Source of the DNA: an uncultured archaeon
Lineage (GTDB): Archaea; Halobacteriota; Methanosarcinia; Methanosarcinales; Methanoperedenaceae
NCBI GenBank assembly: GCA_902384525.1
Contig: CABMCA010000095.1
Location: forward strand, 1-35,882
Reading direction: 5' to 3'
DNA: 35,882 bases
The notes under the pieces were generated by a model. It saw only the letters and a list, made by a program, of their open reading frames with translations. It had not been told where the DNA came from and did no database searches. A program made the translations under genes and the position numbers. This document shows positions 1,710 through 25,135 of the stretch, in pieces (position 1 is the stretch's first letter; every line of letters begins with the position of its first letter).

Positions 1710-3446
1710 TTATTGACCTGTATGCATGATCATATGTTCGACAATCGGTCCCAGCGACAGGGCAGGAAAGAACGTCAGGGCTCCCACAATCAAAATAACA
1801 AAAGCAAGCCATAGAACGAATGTGATCTGATGCGTCGGGAGCGTGCCGATGCCCGGCGGGATATATTTTTTCTTCGCAAGTGACCCTGCCATGGCAAGCG
1901 CTGCTACTGCCGGAACAAATCTGCTGACAAGCATTGCAAGGGCTGTCAACAGATTATAAAACAGAGTATTGGCATTAAGTCCGGCAAATGCGCTGCCATT
2001 GTTATTGGATGCAGAGGCAAAAGCATAGAGTATTTCGCTTAAACCATGAGGGCCGGGGTTCAAAATAGAGGAAATTCCAGCATATGTTACCAGTGCAACA
2101 GAAACAAAAATGAGCACCAGAATGCCCGAAGTGAGGACAATCAACACCGACATCCGCATCTCAAAGACCTCTATTTTTTTGCCAAGATATTCCGGCGTTC
2201 TGCCGATCATAAGACCTGCAATGAAAACCGCTATAATCGCAAATGAAAGGATAGTGTAGAGCCCTGACCCCACACCACCCGGAATATCTTCGCCTAACAG
2301 TATAAGCAGCATCGCGACCATTCCGCCAAGAGGAGTTAATGAGTCATGCATTGTGTTCACAGCGCCGGAGGAGGTAGCTGTTGTGCTGACTGCAAAAAGA
2401 ACCGAGCTGCCGATCCCGAACCTGACTTCCTTGCCTTCTATATAAGAGCCGTTTACTCCCAGCTTCTGCACAAGCGGATTCCCGTTATACTCAGACCAGT
2501 ACATCACTCCGAGTAATAATATGAACAGCATCATCATCGCTGCAAATAAAGCCCACCCCTGCCTGGTATTACCTGCGAAGAGTCCGAATGTGTAAGTGAG
2601 AGAAAAAGGGATAAGCAGGATAAGAAGTATTTCCAGGAAATTGGTTAATGGAGTGGGGTTTTCAAAAGGATGCGCGGAGTTGGCATTGAAAAAACCACCC
2701 CCGTTTGTCCCAAACTCTTTTATTGCTTCCTGGGATGCAACCGGTCCCATGGGAAGCATCTGATTGCCAATGCTGCGTCCATCCGGTGTTTGAAAGGATT
2801 GGAGTAACGAACTGTTTGTATACGGATCAAAATTCTGGATAACGCCCTGGGAGACTAACAGCAGGGCTGCTATGATAGAAATTGGCAGGAGAATGTATAA
2901 CACGCTTTTAGTCATATCCTGCCAGAAATTTCCAATGGTCTGGGAAGTATGCCTGGTAAAGCCGCGAATCAAGGCGAGAGCTATACACATACCTGTGGCA
3001 GCAGAAAGAAAGTTCTGTACTGCCAGCCCTGACATCTGGGTGAAGTAGCTTGCTGTCGATTCACCACTGTACGCCTGCCAGTTTGTATTTGTGACAAAGC
3101 TTACAGCTGTATTGAATGCAAGAGCGAGGTCAAATCCTGTGAAGCCCTGAGGATTAAGGGGAAGTATTCCCTGGAGCTTAAGTACCAGGAACAGAACTAT
3201 TAATCCCAGGCCGTTAAATAACAAGAGAGCCTTCGCATAATCTTTCCAATCCATCTCTTCATCGTGTTTTATATCCGCTGCTTTGTAGATCAGATTTTCA
3301 AGAGGCATCAGGATGGGACTTAAGAAAGTACGGTTGCCCTGATATACGTTCGTTATATACGTTCCTAAAGGCTTAACAAGCAGGGTCAAAACTACCAGAA
3401 GAAATAACATTCCGCTGATATCAAATAAGATTTCCATGTCCGGCAT
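1710..3446 (-). CDS. kdpA: K+-transporting ATPase subunit A (KdpA)
   Basis: Potassium-channel-like translocating subunit of KdpFABC, 578 residues, which is full length. The chain is hydrophobic with about ten membrane segments. It carries the KdpA filter-region blocks [14 protein letters not shown], the glycine-rich [20 protein letters not shown] and [22 protein letters not shown]. The start at 3446 is supported by a consensus AGGAGG (3457-3462, complement) ten bases upstream; the second ATG, three codons in, would be too far from it. It is followed one base later by kdpB. No kdpF-like small ORF was seen in the 51 bases upstream, so KdpF is absent, encoded elsewhere, or replaced by an N-terminal extension. 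Expression would be expected when external potassium is low, but no KdpDE genes lie in the window. Confidence 0.97.
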
Positions 3447-16372: not shown

Positions 16373-17665
16373 ATGAACTTCATCCATGCAAGCGATTTCC
16401 ATCTGGGCTATGCACAATATGGCCTTGAAGAACGCTTCCGTGACTATGCCCGTGCATTCCAATCTGTCATAAAATACGCAATCGATCACAGGGTTGAATT
16501 CATTCTCATTTCAGGCGACCTTTTTCATAAGAGAAACATAAATGCGCCCACCTATTTACAGGCATATAAAGTTCTTCATGAGCTCAAAGAAAGAAGCCCA
16601 TCCACACAGGTTTATGCCATCGAAGGAAACCATGACCTCGCATTTCACCAGGATGGGAAAAGCTGGCTTGAGATATTGAATTCACAGGGTTTGCTAAGAC
16701 TCATGAGGCTAAAAGAAGGAGATGGTGTAAAGCTGATGGGGGATTATATCGAACTTCAAAATGTCCGTATCTTTGGAGTAAGATACCTTGGCTCCAACAC
16801 CAGTTCAATAATTCCCCAGATAGCAGATGAGATAAGAAAAATTGCATCAGCTAGCGGGAAAAAATTTACTGTCTTGATGATGCATTTTGGGATGGAAGGA
16901 CAGGTAAAGCAGGCAGAAGCCGGTGAAATTCCTTACAGTTCGCTGATGCCGTTAAAAGAAGTTGTGGATTACCTTGCACTCGGGCATTACCATATGCAGT
17001 ATGAGGTAGATAGCTGGATATTCAATCCCGGCAGCATTGAAATGATATCCATGAACGAGTACGGGCTGCCCAAGGGTTTCTATCACGTAAAAGACAGCGG
17101 CGCAAAACTTATAACACCGATGACCCGGCCAGTCAGGAGAATGAAACTTGATATTGGGGGTATTGCCAACCCGGATGCGCTTTATTCAAATATCGGAAAT
17201 ATCCTGAAGAAACAACCTGCAAACCTTTCTGATAATAAACCTCTTGTTGAACTTTTATTGTATGGCGAGTTGAACTTTCCGAAATCAGATATCGATATAG
17301 ACCACATAAAGAAAATGCTGGAAGAAGAATTCAAGCCTCTCGCCTGCGAAGTTAAAATAGAGAAAAGCAATTCACAATATACTATCAATGAGGGTGATGT
17401 GCGGGGACTTTCACGTGAGCAGATCGAACAACGTGTCTTTTCTGAAAGAGTAAAACTTGATGCCAGATTCAAGGATAACGTCGATGCAATAGTAAATACC
17501 ATGATCGATGTCAAAAAGAAGGCTGCTGCGGGAATTGAAGAAAGTGAAATAAGGACTGACCTTAGATGGTGCTTTGAAAAAATACGCCCGACTTCTAAAA
17601 CTGTCAGGAATAACGGCAAACATCAGGCACAGCAGCAAACCCTGCTTTCCCGCATGGGGGAATAA
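16373..17665 (+). CDS. mre11: DNA double-strand break repair nuclease Mre11
   Basis: Mn-dependent phosphoesterase that opens hairpins and clips blocked DNA ends together with Rad50. It has 430 residues, typical for archaea. Catalytic motifs: Asp8 and His10 (ASDFHLG), Asp49 (SGDLFHKRN), Asn86-His87 (IEGNHDL), then MMHFGMEG and LGHYHMQY. After the capping domain, the C-terminal third is helical and charged and would bind the base of the Rad50 coiled coil. The stop shares one base with the rad50 start. It is the first gene of the resection operon; a T-rich stretch about 30 bases upstream is the only promoter-like element seen. A minus-strand frame over its 5' end is a shadow. Confidence 0.97.
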   Translation: MNFIHASDFHLGYAQYGLEERFRDYARAFQSVIKYAIDHRVEFILISGDLFHKRNINAPTYLQAYKVLHELKERSPSTQVYAIEGNHDLAFHQDGKSWLEILNSQGLLRLMRLKEGDGVKLMGDYIELQNVRIFGVRYLGSNTSSIIPQIADEIRKIASASGKKFTVLMMHFGMEGQVKQAEAGEIPYSSLMPLKEVVDYLALGHYHMQYEVDSWIFNPGSIEMISMNEYGLPKGFYHVKDSGAKLITPMTRPVRRMKLDIGGIANPDALYSNIGNILKKQPANLSDNKPLVELLLYGELNFPKSDIDIDHIKKMLEEEFKPLACEVKIEKSNSQYTINEGDVRGLSREQIEQRVFSERVKLDARFKDNVDAIVNTMIDVKKKAAAGIEESEIRTDLRWCFEKIRPTSKTVRNNGKHQAQQQTLLSRMGE

Positions 17666-20600
17666 TGCTCATAAAATCCCTGGAACTTAAAAGGATAAAA
17701 TCTTACTCAAATGAAACGATAGATTTTTTTGAAGGCATAAACGGCATCTGTGGGGAGAATGGGCATGGGAAAACAACCATACTTGAGGCAATAGGCTATG
17801 CGCTTTTTGATTTCCTGCCTTTTAATCATGGGGATTTCCTGCGCCATGGTGAAAAATCAGGTTTTGTTGCCGTGACAGTGGAGGGAAAAGACGAGATAGA
17901 ATATACGATAAACAGGAAGATCGGAAGTGGAAGCGATTATTTCATCAGGACGCCCGTTGGAGAGATAAAAGGAAAAAAAGATGTCCAGGCATGGATTGCA
18001 GGCAATATGTTCCGAAGTATCAGGTCAGAAGAAGAACTGCCAGCGCTTTTTCAGAATGCCATAGGGGTACCGCAGGCCACTTTTACCACCGCCTTTCTTG
18101 AGGCTGCAAGAAATCGAAAGAATATATTTGATAATATTTTGAAAGTTGATGAATACAAGACAGCATTTGATAATCTGCTTCCGGTAATGAATGCGATAAA
18201 GAAGACGATTGAGGAAATGGAAAGAGATCTCATTCCGCTTGCAACGCGCACTGAGAAGTATCCTGAATTGAAAAATGAAAAAGTGGCACTACAAACTGAA
18301 ATAGAAGGATTGAAAAAAGAGATCAACGAATTAAATCAGAGGATTTCTGCACTTACCCTGAAAAAAAAAGACCTTACAGAAAAGAAAGCACATCTGGATG
18401 CTCTTAATACTCAGATCGCAAATGAACGGATACATCTTGCAGGTCTTTCAAAGCAGCTTGAAAAGGCGCGCTCTGACCTCGCGCGGGCTAAATCCGCAAG
18501 GGATATCAAAAATGAGCTTGAGCCTGCTGAAAAAGAGTTCCATAAAGAGACGGGGAAGCTAAAAGAACTCAATACATCACGCACAGAACGAGATAAACTA
18601 AAAGAAAAGTGTGCAAAGATAGATCTTGAAATTGGCCGCCTTAATGAAAAATTTGAGCGCAGAAGAACGCTTTTTGTAGAAAATGAGGGACTTGAAGAGA
18701 ACAAGAAACTTCTTATTCCAAAGATAGAAGCTGCGCGTAAACTTGAAGAATCTATACAACTCCTTCAAAAAGAATTAAAAGACCCGATGACTGAACTCAT
18801 TTCGCGCCTTTCAAACCTTAGAGAAAAAGCGCAGCTTGTTGAGAATATGAAGCAGGATATATTGCAGCAAAACCAGAAGATATCTACGCTCTTACCAATG
18901 AAAAACAGGCAGGTCAAGTTTGAGAACAGGATTAAAGAATTGAAAGATATCGAAATGTCATTGAAGAATCTGTCCCTGGAAATATCTTCTTTGAAAGAGA
19001 AGGAAGTTCTTGCCAGAAAATTGCGTGATGAGATAGCACGTCTCGAATCACGAAAAAATGAACTTTCCCCGGTCATTGAAAGGCAAAAAGCCATTTCTGA
19101 CGAAATAAAAAAATTGTCAACCGTGCTTGAATCACTCACTGCTATTAATTTTCAATTAAGGACGGCGCATGAAAAAAAAGAGCGTGCAAAGACCATCAAA
19201 GCAGAGTTAATAAAGCTTGAAAATGAGATCGCATCTCTTATTCCGCTTACTGAAAAACAGACTGCCCTTGAACAGGCGCAGCAGGAGCTTAACAGCAAGA
19301 ATGCAGTTTTAAAATCGTCAATTACGCAGACAAAGAAAAATATGAAGCTTGCAGGAACGCATGGCATCTGTCCAATATTAAATGGCGTCAAATGTCCCTC
19401 AGTAAGTGATTTTAATACCTATTTCAATGATGAGATAAATCAGAAGAACCGGGAATTAGGTGAGTTGGAAACAAGTTTGAAAAAAAATATAAAGGAACTT
19501 TCTCAACTCGATGATCCACAAAAAAAGACACAGGAAAAATTTGTGCTGGTCGGGTCAAGAAAGAAGGACCTTGAATTGTATAAAGGAATAGAAGAAGAGA
19601 TAGATGCAATTCAAGAAAAACTGGATTCTTTATCTTCATCATATACCAGGACATTAACAGGAAGCGACGAAGAACTCAAAGAGATATCACAAAACCTGCA
19701 ATCTAAGAAAAAGGAATTTGACAACTTCACAAAATCCATCACTGAATTTCAAAATATTACAGCATTGGCAGGTTCAAAAACCAGAGACCTTGAAGAATTA
19801 CCCGATATTCCTGCCGCATTTGTTGGAATACAGGAAAAATTATCCGGAATTAACGAAAAATTCAATCTTAATGTGGAGATCAATTCTATCAATAACCACA
19901 TCAAGAATATTGTTTCAGAGATCATATCCAGCGAAAAAGACCTGAAAGATCTCAATAATCCCTCACAGCAAATTGCCATAATTGAAAACCTCATTGCTTC
20001 AAAGAGGTCAGATATTGATTCACGCAAAGATGTGCCGCAATTGATAGATAGTTGTTTGAAACAACTTGATGAACTCAATCAAAGGTTCCATTTGAAAGAT
20101 TCATTAGAAGGCGAAAAGGGGGAAATTGAACTTGTCAACAATTTGATGGAAGAAAAGAAGCAGGATCTGAAATCTTTAGCATCTCCGGATAAGCAATTTG
20201 AGGCATTGAATGAAAATATCAAGAAAAACCTTAAGGAACTGAAAACACTTGAAAAAGTACCAGAGCTTATGGATTCGAGCCATAAAGAACGAGATGCATT
20301 GATACAAGATCTTTCAAAATTCGAAGGGCTTGATGGAACCATCTTATCGCATGAGGAAGAAATAAATAAACTTGAACCCCTGCATAATAAATATTTGCAA
20401 GCCCTCCCGCTTGCGTCCAAATTCGATGAATATACACTGGAAGTGGTGGAATTTGAAAATACCATCGCGGCAGCTGGTGCTTCTTTAAACATATCGGTCA
20501 GTAACCTAGAGGCGCTTTCAAAAGAATTCAAAGAATCTGAACTTAATGAAACTATCCAGCAACTTGATGAACTTGGAAAAACCGCAAGCAGTATAACAGA

Positions 20601-21189
20601 AGCCGTAAAACAGAATAACAAGAACCTTCAAAAAATAGCAAAGGAACTTTCGGAGATGGAATCCATTATCATCAAAATAAAGGAAAATCAAAGAAATCTT
20701 GAAAAGGAAAGGGATTTTCTGTCCTTCTCAAATTTCATCCGCGACACGATTAAATCCTCTTCGGAATTCGTCATAAATCAATTTATCGGGGAGATCAGCA
20801 GCGAAGCAAACAATATCTATTGTGAAATAATGGGTAACCATAGCGCGTCTCTTCGATGGACAAATGATTATGATATTGAGATCGGGTCCGGCGGGGAAAT
20901 AAGCTCCTTCAGGCAGTTAAGCGGCGGGGAGCGCATGAGTGCCGCGCTTTCTGTGCGGCTTGCGCTTTTAAAGACACTTTCCAACTGTGACTTTGTATTC
21001 CTTGATGAGCCCACACAGAATATGGATGAAATAAGGCGTGAAAACCTGTCAGAACAGATAACCAAGATCAAAGGTTTCAAGCAGGTTTTCGTCATATCCC
21101 ACGACGATACTTTCAACGAAAAATACGCGCACGTAGTAAAGGTCCAGAAGATCAATGGCGAAAGCAGGGTTGAATCATGCTCGACTTAA
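17665..21189 (+). CDS. rad50: Rad50 ATPase with a CX7C hook
   Basis: SMC-like ATPase that tethers and processes DNA ends with Mre11; 1174 residues, larger than the usual 850-1000 of archaeal Rad50. The head is split: Walker A GENGHGKTTILEAIGYALFDF near residue 30, then at the C-terminus the signature LSGGERMSAALSVRLALLK, Walker B CDFVFLDEPTQNMDEIRR and the H-loop VFVISHDD. Residues about 175-1040 are coiled coil. At the exact middle, where a zinc hook CXXC is expected, the sequence is GICPILNGVKCPS: Cys569 and Cys577, spacing CX7C. It follows mre11 with a one-base overlap and overlaps nurA by 13 bases. The identification as Rad50 rather than another SbcC-like ATPase rests on the operon. Confidence 0.95.
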   Translation: MLIKSLELKRIKSYSNETIDFFEGINGICGENGHGKTTILEAIGYALFDFLPFNHGDFLRHGEKSGFVAVTVEGKDEIEYTINRKIGSGSDYFIRTPVGEIKGKKDVQAWIAGNMFRSIRSEEELPALFQNAIGVPQATFTTAFLEAARNRKNIFDNILKVDEYKTAFDNLLPVMNAIKKTIEEMERDLIPLATRTEKYPELKNEKVALQTEIEGLKKEINELNQRISALTLKKKDLTEKKAHLDALNTQIANERIHLAGLSKQLEKARSDLARAKSARDIKNELEPAEKEFHKETGKLKELNTSRTERDKLKEKCAKIDLEIGRLNEKFERRRTLFVENEGLEENKKLLIPKIEAARKLEESIQLLQKELKDPMTELISRLSNLREKAQLVENMKQDILQQNQKISTLLPMKNRQVKFENRIKELKDIEMSLKNLSLEISSLKEKEVLARKLRDEIARLESRKNELSPVIERQKAISDEIKKLSTVLESLTAINFQLRTAHEKKERAKTIKAELIKLENEIASLIPLTEKQTALEQAQQELNSKNAVLKSSITQTKKNMKLAGTHGICPILNGVKCPSVSDFNTYFNDEINQKNRELGELETSLKKNIKELSQLDDPQKKTQEKFVLVGSRKKDLELYKGIEEEIDAIQEKLDSLSSSYTRTLTGSDEELKEISQNLQSKKKEFDNFTKSITEFQNITALAGSKTRDLEELPDIPAAFVGIQEKLSGINEKFNLNVEINSINNHIKNIVSEIISSEKDLKDLNNPSQQIAIIENLIASKRSDIDSRKDVPQLIDSCLKQLDELNQRFHLKDSLEGEKGEIELVNNLMEEKKQDLKSLASPDKQFEALNENIKKNLKELKTLEKVPELMDSSHKERDALIQDLSKFEGLDGTILSHEEEINKLEPLHNKYLQALPLASKFDEYTLEVVEFENTIAAAGASLNISVSNLEALSKEFKESELNETIQQLDELGKTASSITEAVKQNNKNLQKIAKELSEMESIIIKIKENQRNLEKERDFLSFSNFIRDTIKSSSEFVINQFIGEISSEANNIYCEIMGNHSASLRWTNDYDIEIGSGGEISSFRQLSGGERMSAALSVRLALLKTLSNCDFVFLDEPTQNMDEIRRENLSEQITKIKGFKQVFVISHDDTFNEKYAHVVKVQKINGESRVESCST

Positions 21190-22319
21190 AAAATATCTCC
21201 CTTCAGTTCGATGAAAAGCTTTCCACAATGAAATCCTATGACTTCGAACTCTCCGAATTGACCAGAGAATACAGAAATGAACTTGACAAATTGAAAATAA
21301 TCAACATGGAGCTTAATAAGAACCTTTCATCCTATAGCGGCGCGAAGCTTCTTGAGCCGGGAAAACTCATCCGTCCGTTCCCATTTAACTGGAAAAACCG
21401 CAAGGATGCGATGGAATGGATGGATTCTGTCCTTTCAGGGGTTCCTGTGGGGGCTGTGGATGGGAGCCAGATATATTCGGATAAGAATTATGAGATACCT
21501 CTTGCGGTCATCCAGATATCACGTATTTTTAACAGGCACACAGAAAATATGGATTATAAGCAAGAGACAGATGCAATTATAATCACGCCAGATGAGTTTG
21601 AAGAGGCAAGCGTTTATTCCTTCGGCAAAGAATACGTCGATGCGCGCCGTTTTTCCATGGAATGCGATGGAATTGTCCGCCTGATGAATGAATATAAAAG
21701 CATCTTTGTCCTGCTTGATGGCGCGCTTATTTTTTCGCATATTAACGTACTGAACAAAAACACGAGGGAAATTTATATAAACGCAATAATGAGACTGTTT
21801 GAAACTTCAGAAAAAACCAGAAGCCCCGTGATCGGTTTTATTGATACTACCATGCCACGGGACATTACGCTTATGATGCATTTCCTTTTCGGTTTGAGGA
21901 AAAGTAAACTTTCAGATACGCATCTTTTTTCAGATATGTTATGGGGCGAGCGGACAGCGGCTTTTCTTTGTGATCGCGATGACAGGCGTGGAGATGAGGC
22001 AAAATCTGTTCTTGATAATTACGGAAGATTCAGTAAGGACCTCGCTTTTTTTTACATGAGGACAGGAAATGGGCTTCCAGCGCGTGTGGAATTTCCTGCA
22101 TGGGTTCAAAAAGAAGGCATGGTTGATAAGATCGCAGACATGATCAGGGCGCAGTGTATCATTCGCGGCAATTATCCCGATATAGTGATGCGGGCGCATG
22201 ATGCGGCTGTGATAAGGACGAACGAACATGAGCTTTTTTATGGGATGCTTGAGAATTTTTGTAATGTTCATGGGATAAAGATTCATAGAAGTGCAAAAGA
22301 TTTTCATAAGAGGTTATGA
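21177..22319 (+). CDS. nurA: 5'-3' nuclease NurA
   Basis: Nuclease that, with the HerA translocase, degrades the 5' strand at DNA breaks to leave 3' overhangs. It has 380 residues. An N-terminal coiled stretch precedes the NurA core, with VGAVDGSQIYSD (Asp95) and FVLLDGALIF (Asp181) supplying metal-binding acids, and VIGFIDTTMPRD forming the conserved middle strand. The C-terminal ARVEFPAWV and RAHDAAVI blocks are typical of the family. The start overlaps rad50 by 13 bases, so coupling is tight. Unusually, herA does not follow directly: a toxin-antitoxin pair and a HAS-barrel-like gene intervene. Confidence 0.94.
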   Translation: MLDLKNISLQFDEKLSTMKSYDFELSELTREYRNELDKLKIINMELNKNLSSYSGAKLLEPGKLIRPFPFNWKNRKDAMEWMDSVLSGVPVGAVDGSQIYSDKNYEIPLAVIQISRIFNRHTENMDYKQETDAIIITPDEFEEASVYSFGKEYVDARRFSMECDGIVRLMNEYKSIFVLLDGALIFSHINVLNKNTREIYINAIMRLFETSEKTRSPVIGFIDTTMPRDITLMMHFLFGLRKSKLSDTHLFSDMLWGERTAAFLCDRDDRRGDEAKSVLDNYGRFSKDLAFFYMRTGNGLPARVEFPAWVQKEGMVDKIADMIRAQCIIRGNYPDIVMRAHDAAVIRTNEHELFYGMLENFCNVHGIKIHRSAKDFHKRL

Positions 22320-22380: not shown

Positions 22381-22644
22381 ATGACTGAGAACATGAGCGT
22401 TAAAATAAGTTCAGATGCAAAAATAATACTTGATACTATGTATCAACAATTACGCAACAGTGGAATTAAAATTACAGAAAAAAAGATCCTCGATACACTC
22501 ATATCAAATGCCGATATTGCTACTATAAAAAAATTACTGAAAAAAGAAGATAATACAGCCCTCTTAATGTTGAAAAAACCAGTGTATTGGGGGGTTGCAG
22601 ATTCTTCGGAAGATATTGACCGCTATCTTTACGGGAATCCATGA
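22381..22644 (+). CDS. VapB-like antitoxin within the resection operon
   Basis: 87 residues. The N-terminus (MSVKISSDAKIILDTMYQQLRNSGIKITEKKILDTLISN) looks like a short ribbon-helix-helix-type DNA-binding domain; the rest is charged and probably binds the toxin. The ATG overlap with the PIN gene at its end (ATGA) is typical of VapBC. An internal ATG at codon 5 (MSVKIS) is an equally good start. The family is inferred mainly from the toxin downstream. Confidence 0.75.
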   Translation: MTENMSVKISSDAKIILDTMYQQLRNSGIKITEKKILDTLISNADIATIKKLLKKEDNTALLMLKKPVYWGVADSSEDIDRYLYGNP

Positions 22645-23045
22645 GCCTTCTTATTGATACTTCTGCGCTTGTTGCAGCCAGGAATGCTGATGATAGAAAC
22701 CATAATAAAGCACTTGATATCATGACCAGGGCTTTAAAAGGCGAATTTGGTAAATTGTATATCAGCGATTATATTTTCGATGAGGCAGTGACCATTGCTT
22801 ATATCAGGACCGGCAATAAGAATTTTTCAGAAGACCTGGGACGATTTGCGCGAACCAGACCAATCATATTCCGGTTCATTGAGCCGATTGACTTTGAGAG
22901 GACATGGGAGCTTTATCTGCAATACAGAGACAAGAATTTCAGTTTTACAGATTGTACGAATATCGCACTTATGGAAAGGCATGAGATTGATACGCTTTTT
23001 ACATATGATTTAGAATTTAATGGAATCATAAGTATTATTGGATAA
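22641..23045 (+). CDS. vapC: PIN-domain toxin (VapC) within the resection operon
   Basis: 134 residues, full-length PIN domain. Catalytic acids: LLIDTSALVAARN (Asp6), YIFDEAVTIAY (Glu), FSFTDCTNIALMERH (Asp), and TLFTYDLEFNGI (Asp) near the end. Overlaps the antitoxin stop by four bases and ends nine bases before the HAS-barrel-like gene, so it is read through in the same transcript as nurA and herA unless it has its own promoter. As a tRNA- or rRNA-cutting toxin it might arrest growth when the operon is disturbed; this is inference. It could also be a recent insertion, tolerated because it keeps downstream spacing. Confidence 0.88.
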   Translation: MSLLIDTSALVAARNADDRNHNKALDIMTRALKGEFGKLYISDYIFDEAVTIAYIRTGNKNFSEDLGRFARTRPIIFRFIEPIDFERTWELYLQYRDKNFSFTDCTNIALMERHEIDTLFTYDLEFNGIISIIG

Positions 23046-23054
23046 GAGGATAAA

Positions 23055-23570
23055 ATGACATTAGGAGACATAATCAGGGTTGAAGACGCGCGCGCATATG
23101 TGGCAAAAATTCCGCCCGATGCTAAAAAAGAACGCATAGGAAGTTTCGTCAAAATAAAAAAAGATGATGGGTTGATTGTAGGAGTAATAAAGAACATCAC
23201 AAATTCAATACGCGAAGACCTTATTCCGTATATTAACCCTGAGTTGGCGCCCAAGTATGCTCCTTTTAATGAGGATTTCAGGAACAGCTATTATTTTATT
23301 CATGGGCTTGGAACGATCCGTAACGGGATCGTAAAATACGATATCGATTCACCACCTGATGTGCGGGACAAAGTGGAAATGTTAAATCCTGAAGAATTAA
23401 AGTTCTTCCATACTATTGACGGAAAGCAAAGCATCGCTTATTTTCACTCAAACTGCGATTCTCTTTCACAAAATGTCCTCATCGCGATGGTCGACCAGAT
23501 CGAGGCTCAGTATCCTGAATGCAAAGCCATGTTTGCGCTTGTTCGAAAATATATCAAGAGAAATTTATGA
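23055..23570 (+). CDS. HAS-barrel-like protein coupled to HerA
   Basis: 171 residues. The N-terminal half (LGDIIRVEDARAYVAKIP, then ERIGSFVKIKKDDGLIVGVIKNI) has the strand pattern of a HAS barrel, the small beta barrel found at the N-terminus of HerA helicases and ATP synthase subunits. The C-terminal half is mixed and ends in helices (NVLIAMVDQIEAQYPECKAMFALVRKYIKRNL). AGAGG lies six bases before the ATG. It overlaps the herA start in an ATGA junction. HerA itself also has an N-terminal domain of this kind, so this may be a regulator or adaptor of the HerA ring. I do not know a named function. Confidence 0.75.
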   Translation: MTLGDIIRVEDARAYVAKIPPDAKKERIGSFVKIKKDDGLIVGVIKNITNSIREDLIPYINPELAPKYAPFNEDFRNSYYFIHGLGTIRNGIVKYDIDSPPDVRDKVEMLNPEELKFFHTIDGKQSIAYFHSNCDSLSQNVLIAMVDQIEAQYPECKAMFALVRKYIKRNL

Positions 23571-25135
23571 TCGGAATTGTCAATCATTCGGATGAAGAGG
23601 GATTTTCATTTATTTCAGCCCAGAGGCTTCCTGCAGGGATGTTCGCATTCTATCTTGAAGGAGAAAGAAAGATACTGTGCAGGGTAAAGCATGGAGAGCC
23701 GCTCAAACAGTATCCGCAGGAATTTCTTATGGATATGGAGCTTTCTCCTGATGAGGTTTCTGCATTTTACGGACTTGATCCGCAGGATTTCAAATACTAT
23801 TCATATTCAACATCAGTCGTTGGGTATTTTGATAATTTGATGGGTGAATTCATAAATCCCAGGACAAATCCTGCCAGCGGCGTGAAAATCGACCGCGCGG
23901 GCGAGGATGTCCTGAAAGATATAAGCAAAGTAAAAGCAGGAGATCCCGGTTCTGCATTAATCGGGAATGTGCTTGGTGAAAATACAGGGATCGTGTTAGC
24001 TGTACGTGACATCGTGAGCCAGCATATATCAGTGATCGCATCAACCGGCGCCGGGAAATCATATACTGTCGGCGTTCTGGTTGAAGAACTGCTGAAGCCT
24101 TATAACATGGCTCCTGTGCTTATTTTCGACCCTCACGGGGAATACTCTTCGCTTGGTGAAATTTCAAATGCGCCTGAATTCGTGACTTCAAATTATCGCC
24201 CAAAAGTGAGGATAGTTAAACCAAAGGATATCAAGATCAGGATAAGCGACCTTCTTGTAAGTGATTTTATCAGCATAATGGATGACGGCACCATGTCTGA
24301 TAAGATGAAAACACTGTTCCGTTCGGCATATCACAACCTGAAGAATAATAGTAAGAAACAGTTCACCCGCAATGAATTGAAACAGGAGATAGAGGCGCTT
24401 CGGGACAAGAATAATGATCCCACAATAGATGGGATCAACTGGAGGTTCGGGAAATTAAATGCGGCTATTTTCGATGATTTCCAGACCATCCCCCTTGCCG
24501 ATTATTTTAAAGTGGGGCAGCTCACGATAATGGATGTTTCAGGTATAGAAGAGACATTCCAGCAATTGATCGCTTCGATAATGCTGCGCCGCCTGTTCGA
24601 CGCCAGGGAGGGCACAGAGAACAACAGGTACAATGAATCCCATGTGGATAAATTCCTTCCCTATCCTGTTTTTTTGGTGATCGAGGAAGCGCACAGGTTC
24701 GCTCCGCAAAGCGGCGAAGCAAAATCAAAGATCATCTTAAAGACCATTCTCTCAGAAGGCAGAAAATTCGGGATAGGCGTATGCCTCGTATCACAGCGCC
24801 CCAGCAAGCTGGATGCAGATTCCCTTTCGCAATGCATGACCCAGATAACGATGCGAATAGTAAATCCCACAGACCAGCAGCAGATAGCCCAGAGCATTGA
24901 ATCTGCAAGCAGGGACCTGATCGCAGAGCTGCCATCTCTTGCGAAAGGCCAGGCGATCATTTCAGGTGTGGCGATAAATACGCCTGCGCTGGTAAAGATC
25001 CGAAAAAGGATCACGAGTGATACGAAAGGTAGGAGCAAGGATGCCCCTGCCATCTGGGCAGCTGAAAGGAAGTATGAAGAAAAGCACAGGGCGCCGGAAG
25101 TGAAGGCGGATGAGGAGATGGATGTGGGGGTGTAA
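23567..25135 (+). CDS. herA: DNA translocase/helicase HerA
   Basis: Hexameric FtsK-HerA superfamily ATPase that moves along DNA and drives NurA. 522 residues from the ATG at 23567, which overlaps the preceding stop by four bases; a frame open 16 codons further upstream lies inside the previous gene and is rejected. An N-terminal HAS-barrel-like domain covers about residues 1-130. Walker A is IASTGAGKSYTVGVLVEELL near residues 157-176. FDPHGEYSSL follows, then Walker B VFLVIEEAHRFAP and the arginine-finger region EGRKFGIGVCLVSQRPSKL. The C-terminal KGQAIISGVAINTPALVKIR is typical. It is the last gene of the resection operon. Confidence 0.96.
   Translation: MIGIVNHSDEEGFSFISAQRLPAGMFAFYLEGERKILCRVKHGEPLKQYPQEFLMDMELSPDEVSAFYGLDPQDFKYYSYSTSVVGYFDNLMGEFINPRTNPASGVKIDRAGEDVLKDISKVKAGDPGSALIGNVLGENTGIVLAVRDIVSQHISVIASTGAGKSYTVGVLVEELLKPYNMAPVLIFDPHGEYSSLGEISNAPEFVTSNYRPKVRIVKPKDIKIRISDLLVSDFISIMDDGTMSDKMKTLFRSAYHNLKNNSKKQFTRNELKQEIEALRDKNNDPTIDGINWRFGKLNAAIFDDFQTIPLADYFKVGQLTIMDVSGIEETFQQLIASIMLRRLFDAREGTENNRYNESHVDKFLPYPVFLVIEEAHRFAPQSGEAKSKIILKTILSEGRKFGIGVCLVSQRPSKLDADSLSQCMTQITMRIVNPTDQQQIAQSIESASRDLIAELPSLAKGQAIISGVAINTPALVKIRKRITSDTKGRSKDAPAIWAAERKYEEKHRAPEVKADEEMDVGV

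Follow-up and report, generated by a model that had tools for sequence, protein, structure and literature searches.

The Rad50 protein encoded in the window, i.e., the whole stretch of 35,882 nucleotides analysed here from an uncultured Methanoperedenaceae archaeon, carries at its apex a CX7C motif in the position where the classical zinc hook has CXXC. This motif was not peculiar to the window protein, but a representative of a widespread set of CX6C and CX7C hooks found in archaea, Bacillota and Fusobacterium. The reading that best accommodates the data is that of a long-loop Rad50 hook in which four cysteines from two protomers would probably share one zinc ion.

The open reading frame at positions 17665–21189 (plus strand) encodes a protein of 1174 aa whose best NCBIfam model was that of Rad50 (NF003034/PRK03918; 201 bits, E 2e-59), and which matched in sequence the Rad50 heads of PDB entries 5f3w (E 4e-27) and 3aux (E 3e-26). 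Pfam recognized AAA_23 and SbcC_Walker_B, and the ABC-ATPase head is split between the N- and C-terminal ends, the Walker A, Walker B and signature motifs lying around a long coiled coil. The genetic context was in line with these matches: mre11 (16373–17665, plus strand; 430 aa; Metallophos and Mre11/SbcD models) overlaps the start of rad50, nurA (21177–22319, plus strand; 380 aa; NurA PF09376, E 1e-25) overlaps its end, and herA (23519–25135, plus strand; 538 aa; HerA central domain PF01935, E 1e-37; NF040819, 196 bits) lies close by. Furthermore, all Rad50 rows in a tree of ATPase heads were separated from the condensin-type SMC outgroup with a support of 100. By head, gene context and head tree alike, the window protein is a Rad50 with Mre11 as its partner. 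Its closest named relatives belong to Candidatus Methanoperedens, the nearest being that of BLZ2 (95% identical). No second Rad50, either classical or other, was found in the window genome, so the CX7C hook must do the job there. A phage origin or spread of this rad50 was rejected, as neither phage matches nor a related viral contig were found for the protein.

The mre11-rad50-nurA order was also present in the archaeal loci L232 and L233, the latter keeping the whole order of the window, and mre11 accompanies rad50 in L229 and L234. In one of the Bacillota, rad50 follows mre11. Two additional genes are located in this break-repair group of the window. A PIN-domain (VapC-like) gene (22641–23045, plus strand) lies between nurA and an unnamed gene for a 171-aa protein (23055–23570, plus strand), which is directly upstream of herA and had no Pfam or NCBIfam match. 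In L233, the space from nurA to herA holds an ORF of 185 aa that looks similar (2333–2890, minus strand), and a weakly similar 194-aa ORF (E 3e-4) was found on a halophile plasmid (L164, 7165–7749). The 171-aa ORF is apparently a conserved, unnamed member of a Mre11-Rad50-NurA-X-HerA gene group.

The initial annotation had described a CX7C motif at the midpoint of Rad50, and this was borne out with exact coordinates. The apex of the protein, AGTHGICPILNGVKCPSVSDFNTYF, reads AGTHG-ICPILNGVKCPS-VSDFNTYF, and GICPILNGVKCPS holds the only central cysteine pair, C569-PILNGVK-C577 (19369–19395, plus strand). Of the eight cysteines in the protein (positions 29, 316, 569, 577, 797, 1053, 1108 and 1172), only Cys569 (codon 19369–19371) and Cys577 (codon 19393–19395) lie at the midpoint. 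Four elements can be distinguished here, all on the plus strand: Cys569-Pro570 (19369–19374), the putative first ligand with a turn residue; Asn573-Gly574 (19381–19386), the predicted β-turn of the hook hairpin; Cys577 (19393–19395), the putative second ligand; and, where the return helix begins, the aromatic patch F583-x2-Y586-F587 (19411–19425).

The conservation of these elements was examined in two alignments. In the near CX7C set (alignment A1; 28 apexes, 26–88% identical to the window), 10 columns were invariant, including G564, C569, P570, G574 (alignment column G81), C577, F583, Y586 and F587. In the diverse set (A3; 23 rows from archaea and Fusobacterium, with both CX6C and CX7C), the only invariant columns were Cys, Pro and Cys, and the residue after the proline was hydrophobic throughout, like Val446 in the classical hook. 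Neither alignment contained another conserved apex Cys or His able to replace the ligands. A YF/FF echo of the aromatic patch was present in the Bacillota and Fusobacterium hooks.

The possibility that close homologues would carry CXXC did not hold, since CX7C was found in 29 of the 30 Rad50 loci nearest by whole-protein similarity (L001–L030), which were not selected on the motif. The exception, L022 (G048 contig 12), has lost about 34 apex residues through an in-frame deletion that took the first hook cysteine but left the second and kept the frame intact. This deletion is perhaps an assembly fault, given that the metagenome-assembled genome is only 61% complete; as it stands, it counts against the zinc-hook reading. 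The same CX7C was also recovered from independent assemblies at 95, 91, 82, 78, 77 and 60–52% identity. In a set of 40 CX7C proteins, which was selected on the motif and for which the unselected figure is that of the 30 nearest loci, C569 and C577 were never replaced, while other cysteines often varied (e.g., C1053 is Ser in 12 of the 40). Among 37 distinct DNA apexes, the codons TGT and TGC were used in proportions of 20/17 at one of these two cysteines and 18/19 at the other. Such synonymous turnover without replacement points to purifying selection on both cysteines, and, together with the conservation among the nearest loci, indicates that the CX7C motif is real and under selection.

The proposal that an unusually long coiled coil forms part of the variant was not supported. 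At 1174 aa, the window protein is long, but not special: Rad50s sharing the CX7C hook ranged in length from 770 to 1181 aa, relatives of 770–911 aa exist, some of them in the genus of the window, and CXXC Rad50s in the sample reached 1183 aa. A link between arm length and hook type was therefore rejected. Within the single genus-level group formed by L001–L030, Rad50 fell into size classes of about 770, 855–911 and 1174–1196 aa, all with the same hook.

Our survey of Rad50 apexes shows that, as far as their sequences tell, the hooks fall into two classes, CXXC and a long-loop class, CP-x5/6-C. We take the family code f5 to stand for Methanosarcinaceae, f9 for Archaeoglobaceae, f14 for Methanocellaceae and f3/f4 for ANME-2 families. 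The long-loop form was CX7C in Methanoperedens, in two sister families and in one further family, and occurred with both spacings in another family. In particular, a search of the phylum with an apex profile retrieved the CX7C motif in families f14 and f15, one f15 member with a six-residue loop (CPIFDIEC), and a divergent CX6C (CPIIDENC) in family f9; CX6C and CX7C even occurred in sister sequences of one family (L072 and L074). With a widened profile, most matches in the class of f9, the second class of the phylum, were CX6C (CPILNESCDRI and similar). Outside the archaea, CX6C was found in Fusobacterium, with a Fusobacterium vincentii record reading CPYLKENCENL...YF, and in Bacillota, where seven of 348 sampled genomes from the phylum of a Bacillota genome had hooks like CPFLxxPCxN or CPIIxExC. 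CXXC hooks (CPTCGQ, CPVCGRE, CPECGQ, CPLCxQ) were present in the Methanosarcinaceae-like families f5 and f6 and in almost every other family sampled within the phylum. As a separate observation, family f2 of the same order (G034, G038, G042, G046, G050, G054, G058 and others) yielded no Rad50-level match in any genome, with best E-values of about 1e-12 to 1e-17, i.e., at SMC level; some of these genomes are 99–100% complete, and the family seems to lack Rad50.

The phylogeny of the ATPase heads bears on the origin of the long-loop class. In a careful tree of 55 rows, built on the heads alone with the hook left out and very long branches removed, all long-loop Rad50s grouped together and the hook class changed once (support 84/76; 86% of bootstrap trees). 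Their sister group was a halophile clade of CXXC Rad50s. A wider, quick head tree, with the very long branches in, needed two changes of hook class. The tree without long branches thus gives the long-loop hooks one origin, at a support of 84/76, and a single origin beside a CXXC sister clade is as expected for the remodelling of a zinc hook. The Rad50 of f5 was placed elsewhere on the head tree, which implies two Rad50 lineages with two hook types within one order. Within f9, genera g33, g41 and g71 had a CXXC Rad50, in contrast to the CX6C Rad50 of g48, g55, g59, g66, g68 and g70, and the CXXC proteins of some f9 genera were close to the curated equivalog (721–1091 bits), which suggests that the gene was replaced as a whole. 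Both Rad50 types occur together in one f15 genome (G167). Moreover, plasmids or secondary replicons of halophilic archaea (L164, NZ_CP119991.1; L166, CP002989.1) carry a mre11-rad50-nurA cassette, which in L164 also includes an unnamed gene and one for an ATP-binding protein; the Rad50 heads of both are sister to the long-loop class, and their hooks are CXXC.

The apex was modelled with AlphaFold2 on 193 and on 111 residues separately, with alignments of seven close sequences each. The 193-residue model (residues 479–671; 19099–19677, plus strand) is a helical hairpin with helix 2–87, a hairpin loop at 88–101 and helix 102–136 (mean pLDDT 87.6), with pLDDT values exceeding 90 where the helices approach the apex and the lowest ones, 58–80, at the apex itself. 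Both models placed short strands (I571-L572 and V575-K576) around the Asn-Gly turn between the cysteines, within this low-scoring segment. When the 111-residue model was compared by Foldseek, the Pyrococcus furiosus zinc hook 1l8d ranked second and fourth (TM 0.72/0.78 and 0.69/0.74), with E-values of about 0.2, which fall short of significance, as is usual for a fold as generic as a helical hairpin; the 193-residue apex retrieved only generic coiled coils. A sequence search of the PDB found no precedent for a CX6C or CX7C hook.

In the classical dimer, two CXXC motifs hold one Zn(II), the proline of the P. furiosus hook stabilizes the zinc complex, and a hydrophobic residue between the cysteines and a turn glycine after them add stability (PMC5093744). 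By analogy, the antiparallel arm of the window Rad50 would end in a β-hairpin larger than the classical one, predicted with modest confidence; C569 would precede this hairpin, C577 would close it, and the Asn-Gly turn would bring the two cysteines together, pointing outward. Two protomers would then meet apex to apex and their four thiolates would bind one Zn(II), tethering the arms with no CPxCG knuckle and with a chelate loop of greater size. Compared with the classical hook, the sequence keeps both thiols of each chain, the proline and the hydrophobic residue, but its second thiol lies four or five residues further along, beyond an additional turn; I571, L572, V575, F583, Y586 and F587 may provide extra apolar contacts. 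That both thiols of each protomer and the Cys-Pro are invariant argues, on sequence grounds, for retained metal coordination, and location within a Mre11-Rad50-NurA group, the apex position and the tolerance of one residue in spacing are in line with this. Most likely, then, the hook works like the classical zinc hook. The Rad50 hook of fission yeast can be functionally replaced by the SMC-type hinge of MukB (PMC6969161), so the cell seems to need a firm tip dimer and not a particular chemistry, which makes remodelling of the hook plausible. The initial annotation had also anticipated that a larger loop would change zinc coordination or replace it with another dimer contact. The local geometry must indeed be altered, since the CPxCG knuckle cannot form with the longer loop, and a replacement of zinc is the less likely of the two; the proposed effect of a longer coil on the tether was not supported, arm length being unlinked to hook type. 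With the classical knuckle lost, zinc affinity could be much lower.

A different overall view is that CP-x5/6-C represents a long-separate second hook class whose tips are joined by a non-knuckle chemistry or geometry, for instance a clasp sensitive to redox state or iron, or a metal-free dimer stapled by disulfides. We consider this unlikely; if true, Rad50 tip dimerisation would have been re-invented in nature. The main rival to the zinc hook is a C569-C577 disulfide, intramolecular or between protomers, that would lock the chain reversal at the tip, with dimerisation through a hydrophobic hairpin or switched by the redox state. Some viral fusion proteins have chain-reversal loops closed by a disulfide, and a CX6-7C loop where two antiparallel helices turn back is reminiscent of these. 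Indeed, the best PDB match of the apex profile was the viral GP2 ectodomain 4n21 (E 0.0035, aligned over GLC-x7-C), ahead of the Rad50 hooks 1l8d (E 0.18) and 6zff (E 0.38), both of which aligned on the coil. However, this likeness is probably convergence helped by coiled-coil composition, the protein is cytoplasmic in anaerobes, and the invariance of Cys-Pro, like the single origin beside CXXC hooks, favours a metal, all of which makes the disulfide quite unlikely.

The long hairpin and F-x2-YF could instead form a small, hinge-like hydrophobic interface in which the cysteines are only structural. The invariance of G564, G574, F583, Y586 and F587 in the near set would fit such a metal-free dimer, as would the MukB exchange, which implies that a tether does not depend on zinc itself. 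Nevertheless, the aromatics are variable across the wide set and absent from the second class of the phylum, whereas both cysteines never vary, and we rate this reading as very unlikely. Equally, the four cysteines of the dimer might bind something other than zinc, for instance Fe(II) or an Fe-S cluster shared between the subunits, giving a redox- or iron-sensitive tether; four thiols at a wider spacing could hold a cluster and many hosts are presumably anaerobes, but no cluster-like sequence feature was present and the same plan recurs in diverse Bacillota and Fusobacterium, so that this is highly improbable. Finally, a sequencing error or the decayed hook of a degraded gene, to which only the unusual spacing and the deletion in L022 could point, can practically be dismissed: the error was rejected by the independent assemblies and the synonymous codon turnover, and the motif persists in intact frames across the nearest loci.

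The long-loop zinc hook, as the preferred reading, can be set against known systems. It resembles the classical Rad50/SbcC zinc hook (PF04423; P. furiosus 1L8D, human 5GOX) in its position at the apex of an antiparallel arm with Mre11 adjacent, its two invariant apex cysteines per chain, its Cys-Pro-hydrophobic start and, going by the low-scoring apex of the models, perhaps a β-hairpin. It differs in the spacing of its cysteines (six or seven residues, against two) and in the absence of a CPxCG knuckle. The defining CXXC being absent, we filed the window protein as a Rad50 with a new hook variant and not as a member of the CXXC zinc-hook family. PF04423 gave no match, even at E 10, on the window Rad50 and three other full-length long-loop proteins; a halophile CXXC relative scored 17.8 bits, itself below the cut-off of 24.3, which was exceeded in one of 150 genomes of the order, only through a 195-aa frame that is not Rad50. 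Weaker matches in the order were discarded as an unrelated ATPase with CPLC (L050) and unrelated frames. The existence of a CX6C/CX7C class accounts for the failure of the curated hook model to recognize such proteins. No description of CX7C or CX6C Rad50 hooks, including those of Methanoperedens and Archaeoglobus, was found in the open-access literature, so the variant does not appear there as an already described hook type.

Archaea-specific SMC-related proteins (ASRP, Sph, coalescin) are archaeal members of the SMC superfamily that have a zinc hook (PMC9389158). They are another family, the window gene sitting in a Mre11-Rad50-NurA group, and an ASRP identity was rejected (NF045487, 99.8 bits against a cut-off of 300). 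The SMC/MukB hinge is likewise a dimerisation module at the tip of an SMC-type coil, exchangeable in function with the Rad50 hook (PMC6969161), but it is a folded domain of 150–200 residues, compared with about 14 between the helices of the window Rad50, in which no SMC hinge was detected (no hinge family in Pfam; a model of helix, 14-residue loop and helix). The CX6C hooks of the second class of the phylum (CPxL..xC), of Bacillota (CPFLxxPCxN) and of Fusobacterium share the head clade, the CP...C plan and, where checked, an adjacent mre11; their loop is one residue shorter, and those of the second class are without the F-x2-YF patch. Together, CX6C and CX7C hooks form a large natural class that breaks the rule of thumb of a textbook spacing of two residues, and offer a natural comparison of how much Rad50 tethering needs the exact zinc knuckle and how much it needs simply to hold two arms together.
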